DNA of 38,397 bases, from contig QBMC01000022.1 in assembly GCA_003242035.1 (NCBI GenBank), positions 1-38,397 of the forward strand, written 5' to 3'. The translations under genes and the position numbers were made by a program. This stretch comes from Nodosilinea foveolarum (GTDB taxonomy: Bacteria; Cyanobacteriota; Cyanobacteriia; Phormidesmidales; Phormidesmidaceae). The notes beneath the pieces are model-generated. The model was not told the origin of the DNA. It saw nothing but the letters and a program-made list of their open reading frames with translations, and did no database searches. Of the stretch, positions 28,491 to 30,598 are shown one piece after another; the stretch's first letter is position 1, and every line of letters starts with the position of its first letter.

Positions 28491-28903
28491 AGCTATTTAT
28501 GGAAGTAACAACATTGGGAATTGGGATTAAATTGAGACTAGTCATCGAGCGTAGAAATTAAGGCACCATGATAGCGCCTTGAACTCGCGGTGACTAGAGC
28601 AAGTAGGAAAAACTACGCAACCGTAGTTTCACAGTCACAGTAAAACTATTCTTGCCACCCTTAGATTTTTTTTCGCCCGTCTGGAGAAACAAATTGGCAA
28701 AAAAATCTGAGGGAAAAAATAGGCGGCTTAGCTGAACGGCTTAATTAACTACTTGCTCGCAGATATTATAATACTCTAGTACTACTCAAAGAGCACGATC
28801 AGCTAAGCGTGAAAAATTGTGAGGCTTTAGGCGCGATCGCTCACCAAATCAAACCCATTCCCTAAAATAAAAGTCCAGAGCGCCCAATCAGGAGACACTT
28901 CTC
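28491..28903. other. Divergent promoter region between CURT1/CAAD and hflX
   Basis: About 410 bases without a gene. A hairpin AAACTACG-CAAC-CGTAGTTT sits at 28610-28629; on the minus strand it is followed by a T-run, so it could act as an attenuator in the CURT1/CAAD leader. A smaller AAGGC/GCCTT pair is at about 28560-28580. A HIP1 site is near 28835. Confidence 0.4.
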
Positions 28904-30598
28904 ATAGAAAAAATCTACGGCGAGCTAAAAGGACTCAAATCTAGCCAGCTAAAAGAACTCCAGCGAGTGTACCATCAGCGACTGCCCGTAGACCGGGTGA
29001 CCACACCAGAGTTCGCCCAGCGGCTAGCCTCTATCAGTACGGATATCAATCAGGCCGTCTGCGCGTATATCGACCGGCGCGGTCACGTCATCAGAGTAGG
29101 CGTAGGCAGTCCGCACCAAACGCAAATTCCGGTGTTAGAACTGCCTCGCTACGGCGCAGAACGGCTGTGTGGCATTCGCTGCGTGGCCACCCAGCTCAAA
29201 ATAGAGCCACCGAGTCACAGCGTCCTCACCGCCATGGCTATTCAAAGGTTAGATGCGATCGCCCTGCTCACCCTCACCGGCACCGGCTTCAAACGCAAAG
29301 GTGGCGGCGCAACTGGCTACATCCGCGATGCCTATTTAGCGCATCTCGTTCCAGACCCGGTGGAAAAGTGGATCGTCTCAGAACCGCTAACGCTAGACGA
29401 GCTAGACGAGCAAGACTTTCTAGACTTAGCCGAAAGTTTGGAGGAAGAATTTCGCCGCGTCTTTGTCGCACAGCAAGTAGACACCGATCACGAGCGCGTG
29501 ATTGTCGTGGGCTTACAAACTGATCGAATGGACGAAGATACGTTCAATAACGGGCTAGAAGAAGTCGCGAGACTGGTCGATACAGCAGGCGGCGATGTAC
29601 TAGAAACGGTGACTCAAAAACGGTCAAAGCCTCACCCGAGAACGGTTATTGGCGCGGGTAAGGTCGATGACATTGCGCTGTCGGTGCAGACGCTGGGGGC
29701 GAATTTGGTGGTGTGCGATCGCGATCTATCCCCCGCCCAGGTACGCAACTTAGAAGCCCACATCGGTGTTCGCGTCGTAGACCGCACCGAGCTGATTTTG
29801 GATATCTTCGCGCAGCGGGCGCAGTCTGGCGCAGGTAAATTGCAGGTAGAACTGGCCCAGCTCGAATATCAGCTACCCAGGCTCACCGGACGCGGTCAGG
29901 CCATGTCCAGACTCGGGGGCGGTATTGGCACTCGAGGCCCCGGTGAAACCAAGCTGGAGACCGAGCGACGAGCCATTCAAAAGCGGATCACTCGCTTGCA
30001 AAGAGAAGTGGATGGCATCCAGGAGCATCGGGCCAGAATGCGACAGCGGCGGCAGCATCAGTCCGTGCCGTCGGTGGCGATTATTGGTTATACCAACGCG
30101 GGCAAATCTACGCTGCTCAATCGGCTAACGGACGCGGAAGTCTACGCGGCAGATCAGCTTTTTGCCACCCTCGACCCGACGACGCGAAGAATTAGCATCC
30201 CAGAGGCGGACAGTCATGAGGTGCGATCGCTCGTCCTCACCGACACCGTAGGCTTCATTCAAGACCTACCGCCCGCCCTGATGGATGCCTTTCGCGCCAC
30301 CCTCGAAGAAGTCACCGAAGCCGACGCGCTAATTCACGTCGTCGATGCCTCGCATCACGCCTGGAAAGAGCATATTCGTTCAGTTATGGGCTTGCTGGGT
30401 CAGATGCCGATTGCGCCAGGGCCAATTTTACTGGTGTTCAACAAACTAGACAAAGCTAATACTGATGCTTTAGAGCTGGCAAAAGACGAGTACCCGCAGG
30501 CCGTATTTATCTCCGCCGCCAACAATTTAGGGATGGACACGCTGCGGCAGAAAATACTTCAGCTCATTGACTATGCCGTTGCGAAAGAAGCAGGTTAA
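28904..30598 (+). CDS. hflX: GTPase HflX
   Basis: A ribosome-associated GTPase that rescues or splits stalled 70S ribosomes. The nucleotide-binding motifs are GYTNAGKSTLLN (G1), DTVGFIQDLP (G3) and NKLDKA (G4); the HflX domain has GAGKVDDIAL and the RLGGGIGTRGPGETKLE glycine-rich segment. Cyanobacterial proteins are about 560 residues. The first ordinary start is GTG at 28967, but the conserved N-terminus (EKIYGELKGLK, SSQLKELQRVY) lies upstream in the same open frame, which has no ATG, GTG or TTG back to a stop at 28868. AGGAGA is 8 bases before ATA at 28904, so I place the start there. Confidence 0.85.
   Translation: MEKIYGELKGLKSSQLKELQRVYHQRLPVDRVTTPEFAQRLASISTDINQAVCAYIDRRGHVIRVGVGSPHQTQIPVLELPRYGAERLCGIRCVATQLKIEPPSHSVLTAMAIQRLDAIALLTLTGTGFKRKGGGATGYIRDAYLAHLVPDPVEKWIVSEPLTLDELDEQDFLDLAESLEEEFRRVFVAQQVDTDHERVIVVGLQTDRMDEDTFNNGLEEVARLVDTAGGDVLETVTQKRSKPHPRTVIGAGKVDDIALSVQTLGANLVVCDRDLSPAQVRNLEAHIGVRVVDRTELILDIFAQRAQSGAGKLQVELAQLEYQLPRLTGRGQAMSRLGGGIGTRGPGETKLETERRAIQKRITRLQREVDGIQEHRARMRQRRQHQSVPSVAIIGYTNAGKSTLLNRLTDAEVYAADQLFATLDPTTRRISIPEADSHEVRSLVLTDTVGFIQDLPPALMDAFRATLEEVTEADALIHVVDASHHAWKEHIRSVMGLLGQMPIAPGPILLVFNKLDKANTDALELAKDEYPQAVFISAANNLGMDTLRQKILQLIDYAVAKEAG

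Follow-up and report, generated by a model that had tools for sequence, protein, structure and literature searches.

Where does translation of hflX begin in Nodosilinea foveolarum? The question is raised by a 38,397-nt stretch of its genome (the whole of which is called the window here) in which the hflX frame is open on the forward strand from position 28871 to a stop ending at 30598. An in-frame TAA (28868-28870) bounds any upstream start, and the frame holds no ATG, GTG or TTG from 28871 up to GTG 28967-28969, exactly as the initial annotation of the locus had stated. That annotation placed the start at ATA (28904-28906), with a Shine-Dalgarno-like AGGAGA (28890-28895) 8 nt before it, a spacing that the window sequence confirms. 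Comparison with relatives, described below, indicates that hflX translation almost certainly starts at ATA 28904, and that a start codon of this weak type is a property of the gene far beyond this strain.

The hflX locus of the window

The 575-aa frame is HflX by its match to NCBIfam TIGR03156 (476.4 bits vs. a cut-off of 216.75). Read from ATA, and with the stop codon included, the coding sequence spans 28904-30598 on the forward strand, an assignment that rests on the open frame, the TIGR03156 match and an N-terminus conserved in relatives. The codons between ATA and GTG (28907-28966) encode the conserved EKIYGELKGLK. The genome, a draft assembly of 4.75 Mb in 299 contigs of which the window is contig C144, carries a single hflX; the two other matches, both weak (26 bits), come from different GTPase-like frames.

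The leader and first codons (28872-28936) fold with -15.9 kcal/mol (z -2.27 against shuffles, for the whole 65 nt), which is better than most shuffles. The fold includes a possible small hairpin, GAGA-CACT-TCTC (28892-28903), that lies 5' of the ATA and overlaps the Shine-Dalgarno sequence. It is of doubtful weight because it is not visible in most members of the genus.

The homologous codon in cyanobacteria

In what follows, position 0 is the codon homologous to ATA 28904 of the window, AUH stands for AUA, AUC or AUU, and ordinary start codons are ATG, GTG and TTG. Loci were drawn from named genomes and from the genus, family and phylum, and represent a subset of the genomes with a match; 162 of 386 phylum genomes matched at the cut-off, and a small-genome family (f20) mostly did not. 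The 196 cyanobacterial loci that entered were reduced to 177 by removing one without a match, 14 duplicates and four with a truncated or diverged N-terminus. Two of these four, both from family f25 (L196 and L198), have a diverged N-terminus and an in-frame ATG 20 codons upstream, which counts against universality.

Position 0 of the primary cyanobacterial hflX is ATC or ATA in 165 of the 177 distinct loci, and it is ATA in all seven genomes of the genus. None of the 177 has ATG, GTG or TTG exactly there. The initial annotation, which named ATG at this codon as the outcome that would speak against an AUA start, had also described related proteins as beginning with Met at this place; the former is absent from these relatives, and the latter does not hold for primary cyanobacterial hflX. 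Nor is the AUA start a rarity of this strain, as first supposed, since the weak codon belongs to the gene across the phylum.

Three kinds of locus make up the set. In a pass with the N-terminal profile, 135 loci had no ordinary codon from codon -8 to +2, with ATC (83) or ATA (52) at position 0. Five more also lack an ordinary codon over this range and have an AUH codon adjoining position 0. In the remaining 37 an ordinary codon does occur within this range, at codon -2 in 27 of them; no other kind is present. An AUH start is thus not obligatory, and where an ordinary codon lies upstream, position 0 sometimes drifts (ACT, ACA, GTT, GGA, ATT). In the first pass, which took in 178 distinct primary loci, 140 had no ordinary codon within 8 codons upstream of position 0, with ATC at position 0 in 82, ATA in 52, AAT in four, GTC in one and AGT in one; the six with AAT, GTC or AGT have an Ile codon one place earlier.

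Ordinary starts are the rule in two groups of sequences within the phylum. All eight loci of family f20 have them, as do all 12 hflX paralogues. These second hflX copies, carried by several cyanobacteria and in several cases with ATG exactly at position 0, look as if they had been freed from the weak start. The non-photosynthetic cyanobacterial classes contributed six loci, three with ordinary starts, two with AUH and one with AUH adjoining position 0.

Locating the start

The upstream limit is set by the frame itself. In 119 of the 135 cyanobacterial AUH loci no ordinary codon occurs anywhere in the upstream open frame, and in 50 of the 135 the upstream stop and position 0 have no more than three codons between them; the frame therefore cannot start much earlier than position 0. 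The downstream limit comes from mismatch frequencies over 4107 locus pairs. Codons 1-21 show mismatches of 0.178/0.062/0.529 at codon positions 1/2/3, and codons 22-60 show 0.178/0.045/0.513, but the 20 codons upstream of position 0 show 0.641/0.624/0.609, without codon periodicity; because locus pairs are not independent, the comparison is to be read as a pattern, not as a P value. Since codons 1-21 behave like codons 22-60 and unlike the upstream sequence, the start is not later than position 0. The stretch with EKIYGELKGLK, taken at first sight for the conserved HflX N-terminus, is thereby upheld as coding sequence kept in relatives, and the window's hflX frame offers no ordinary codon compatible with this N-terminus.

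Two further observations bear on the same point. Shine-Dalgarno-like tetramers occur 4-17 nt before position 0 in 53 of the 135 cyanobacterial AUH loci (background 0.043). Several hflX paralogues, as well as loci from Bacillota and from the Myxococcus phylum, have ATG, GTG or TTG exactly at position 0, which makes it an initiator position elsewhere. With the onset of coding at position 0 and ATC or ATA in nearly all primary loci, the comparison strongly supports the ATA start that had been proposed for the window.

Initiation at another near-cognate codon close by, such as the ACG at -2 in Nostoc-like cyanobacteria (ACG CCT ATA) or CTT or CTC in the window, is the best of the competing placements, and an improbable one. 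ACG is at -2 in 56 of the 140 first-pass loci without a nearby ordinary codon, ordinary starts have arisen preferentially at this same place (the 27 of 37 noted above), and the same ACGCCT precedes GTG in type-A infC of several cyanobacteria. Yet the -2 codon is otherwise varied and is even a stop in four of the 140 (TAG in three, TGA in one). A base-by-base comparison shows the coding pattern setting in at position 0, not at -2. In other phyla, moreover, a stop lies directly before or one codon before the AUH codon in some loci (L308, L349, L312); in L308 and L349 it directly precedes ATT, after a purine-rich Shine-Dalgarno sequence. The window itself has CTT and CTC as codons -2 and -1.

A start at GTG 28967, with the 21 codons upstream of it left untranslated, has in its favor that this is the first ordinary start codon of the hflX frame, but it would delete the conserved N-terminus, whose codons share the coding pattern of codons 22-60, and it is very unlikely. 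Of the 177 loci only 11 have an ordinary start codon at this site, and the six further loci compared at genus level read ATT or ATC; relatives thus do not share a start there, in agreement with the initial annotation, and the GTG is best taken as coding for an internal Val. The nearest downstream ordinary codon has no fixed place across loci: in 65 of the 122 that lack an upstream one it comes 40 or more codons into the frame. Shine-Dalgarno-like tetramers precede it in just 3 of 132 cyanobacterial AUH loci.

There is hardly any case for ribosomes starting at an upstream ordinary codon in another frame and then shifting into the hflX frame: an ordinary codon whose frame runs over position 0 is present in 36 (+1) and 38 (+2) of the 135 AUH loci, but in either frame the majority of loci lack one, the encoded peptides do not resemble each other, and the 20 upstream codons lack codon periodicity. 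A sequencing or assembly error at 28904, conceivable in a draft of 299 contigs, is refuted in practice by ATA in seven of seven genus genomes and the lack of ATG in all 177 loci.

Constraint on the codon

Codon usage at position 0 was compared with that at other Ile codons in a redundancy-reduced set of 65 loci (<80% nucleotide identity). Position 0 is ATC in 54 and ATA in 11, and never ATT. The Ile three codons past position 0 is ATC in 30, ATT in 19 and ATA in seven, and later Ile codons are ATT (268), ATC (141) and ATA (34). On a quick tree of the 177 loci, the fewest switches between ATA and ATC at position 0 number 10, and those between AUH only and an ordinary codon from -3 to 0 number 18. 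ATA is a single transition from ATG, yet ATG is not found at position 0 in any of the 177. We read this pattern of codons as selection against AUG at position 0, plus release once an upstream start arises. Amino-acid constraint on the Ile is an alternative for part of the pattern.

Features of the cyanobacterial leader

Part of the cyanobacteria appear to share a hairpin at -26 to -11. Across 173 distinct leaders, the proportion of cells with standard pairing at six anchored pairs is 0.524; the shuffle control gives 0.428, with a maximum of 0.471 among 300, and sliding the pairs gives 0.298-0.427. At least five of the six pairs form in 50 of the 173 leaders, 42 of which have a G-rich tract just 5'. 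The stems vary in sequence while pairing is preserved (e.g., L010, L039, L120 and L024). In a scan of 177 leaders, the best hairpin outscored every one of 20 shuffles in just 23, so that it characterizes at most some of the phylum. Lying between the purine tract and the start, it is possibly a structured spacer.

A GCCT box directly precedes position 0, with G at -4 in 99, C at -3 in 118, C at -2 in 100 and T at -1 in 116 of the 135 cyanobacterial AUH loci. An extended codon-anticodon pair involving U at -1 was considered and dropped: the base is T in these 116 cyanobacteria but mostly C (14 of 16) in the phylum of Myxococcus. A search of four loci against Rfam for a known RNA family at the hflX start gave one weak sub-threshold match, on the opposite strand.

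hflX in other phyla

Loci from other phyla, read with the N-terminal profile, are the best-scoring matches around chosen center genomes and not a random sample of the phyla. Among such best matches, the phylum of a Chloracidobacterium record (32 loci) has eight ordinary starts, 17 AUH codons at position 0 and seven AUH codons adjoining it. The phylum represented by a Deltaproteobacteria bacterium record (50 loci, likewise best matches) has 11 ordinary, 38 AUH and one other, and the best matches in the phylum of Myxococcus (50 loci) have 31 ordinary, TTG and ATG included, 16 AUH and three CTG. Bacillota yielded 36 loci, 20 of which did not match the cyanobacterial-type N-terminus and one of which was a duplicate; the starts are ordinary in all 15 that remained. 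Three hflX loci (L476, L490, L491) have CTG as their inferred start, as does one infC locus (L369, genome G447).

Shine-Dalgarno tetramers precede the AUH codon in 15 of 17, 34 of 38 and 15 of 16 loci of the Chloracidobacterium-record, Deltaproteobacteria-record and Myxococcus phyla, and the first downstream ordinary codon in 4 of 17, 5 of 37 and 2 of 16, respectively. The pairing of a weak codon with a Shine-Dalgarno sequence is present in the window. As a family trait it is mixed, being the usual state of AUH loci in these three phyla but present in only the 53 of 135 cyanobacteria counted above. On comparative grounds, then, most sampled cyanobacteria keep an AUH-type start of hflX, and so do many representatives of three other phyla.

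infC and lepA in the same genomes

The start of infC, the gene for initiation factor IF3, was read in the same genomes, with lepA as a control; in all 30 phylum genomes read, lepA has ATG, at a single constant location. The infC of the window's genome (G000, L267) lacks an ordinary codon all the way from the preceding stop to the conserved block, and an ATC follows GAGGA. It is of a divergent type, the only type found in this genome and in three other members of the genus (G002, G003, G004), and ATC follows GAGGA in all four. This divergent IF3 gene (L267, L263, L265, L269) scores about 150 bits, and the common type about 240; other members of the window's family carry the common type or both.

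Common-type (type A) infC in the 30 phylum genomes, read by eye, begins with GTG or ATG, frequently in the form ACGCCTGTG; for many cyanobacteria a strict parallel with infC is weaker on this account. The second infC copies of ten cyanobacteria mostly have ATC (one was not located and one is ambiguous). Two non-photosynthetic members of the phylum have the same codon in both genes, infC and hflX being ATT and ATT in G088 and ATC and ATC in G075. In 22 further genomes, also by eye, the infC start is apparently AUH in 21 and CTG in one; two genomes (G537, G097) have an ordinary infC codon upstream in frame as well. The hexamer ACGCCT occurs directly before the weak start both in hflX (e.g., L010; ATA or ATC) and in type-A infC (L240, L250, L256; GTG).

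A possible role for the weak start

Translation of hflX would initiate at AUA 28904, positioned by the Shine-Dalgarno sequence AGGAGA, and the initiator tRNA would presumably insert fMet there, as it does for other near-cognate codons. IF3 rejects non-AUG codons. Too little IF3 for the number of 30S subunits present, or a loss of stringency in its proofreading, would then be expected to let both genes, infC and hflX, initiate more often. HflX splits stalled 70S ribosomes and IF3 prevents 30S from rejoining 50S, as described in PMC9067457; the predicted outcome is a joint rise of an anti-association factor and a 70S-splitting factor.

Several claims of different strength are involved. The sequences themselves show where the start lies, that it is conserved and that AUG is nearly absent from it, whereas control by IF3 and the purpose of such control are inferred. 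The explanation taken as a whole, a conserved weak AUH start of hflX at AUA 28904 that works like the AUU of infC, is likely to be right. That the AUH start behaves like infC AUU, with IF3-type discrimination as the reason it has been kept, is favored with some reserve on the analogy between the two genes. Strong Shine-Dalgarno sequences and AUH codons at both infC and hflX suggest a shared response to the IF3 level, and a dependence of hflX expression on initiation factors would fit the apparent ATC start of infC in the same genome. By this reckoning hflX joins infC as a gene whose AUH start is deeply conserved, and is probably repressed by IF3.

The main rival to control by IF3 is that the AUH start is real but merely a device for low expression, with no special role for the factor, which we consider a distinctly less probable reading. 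It draws on the other weak codons (TTG, GTG, CTG) found at position 0 in relatives and on hflX of E. coli K-12, which is annotated with a TTG start. As an argument only, the three other phyla mostly pair the weak codon with a strong Shine-Dalgarno sequence, as infC does, and this is not the cheapest route to low output; furthermore, infC shares the weak start in the same genomes.

The IF3-dependent reading can be extended, tentatively and with slightly less than even confidence, to an ancient IF3-sensing pair, hflX and infC, that spans Cyanobacteriota and three or more other phyla. When IF3 runs short, or subunits outnumber it, HflX would rise directly through the choice of start codon, AUG would be selected against, and in part of the cyanobacteria the covarying hairpin would serve as a structured spacer.

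Few bacterial genes outside infC are known to keep an AUA, AUC or AUU start over long evolutionary distances. If hflX is a second one, and a ribosome splitter, start-codon choice as a readout of the state of IF3 and the subunits becomes testable in ordinary strains. The N-terminus of hflX would also be misannotated wherever gene callers accept only ATG, GTG and TTG. No report of a non-AUG hflX start was found in the open-access texts searched, where the family-wide AUH start appears to be unreported; Gvozdjak and Samanta (2020), on genes preferring non-AUG starts, could list hflX.

Comparison with known systems

The closest parallel is infC. Like hflX, it has a near-cognate AUH start, usually with a Shine-Dalgarno sequence, that is widely conserved, and it encodes a factor that keeps the ribosomal subunits apart. 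Autocontrol of infC by IF3 has been demonstrated experimentally in E. coli, whereas control of hflX is deduced; hflX would be the target, and the infC product the sensor.

Discrimination by IF3 against non-AUG codons is exploited for infC and for Streptomyces sigR (PMC5472188). According to this account, the sigR start is GTC in 32 of 34 species and GTT in two; sigR resembles hflX in its conserved non-canonical start, and is a stress gene with a strong ribosome-binding site. It differs in being confined to one genus, in its codon (GTC) and in that its repression by IF3 has been shown experimentally. In S. aureus, the starts of infC (AUA), ccpN (AUA) and cvfC1 (AUU) were mapped by ribosome profiling (PMC13009471). 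The conserved AUH starts of staphylococcal ccpN and cvfC1, which have an extended Shine-Dalgarno sequence, are like that of hflX, but these are other genes, of narrower conservation as described there, and their starts are established by ribosome profiling and reporters.

Proteogenomics of Nostoc PCC 7120 led to peptide-based gene revisions with ATA or ATT starts (PMC8557916), and relatives of this strain have ATA at hflX; the genes concerned are unnamed in the main text of that study, and hflX could be among them. In Bacillales, the uORFC-6-1 leader of hflX (PMC8632094), as presented there, ties expression to the state of the translating ribosome, a likeness to the scheme proposed here. It does so by a stalling upstream reading frame, which is a difference, and the sampled hflX loci of Bacillota have ordinary starts.
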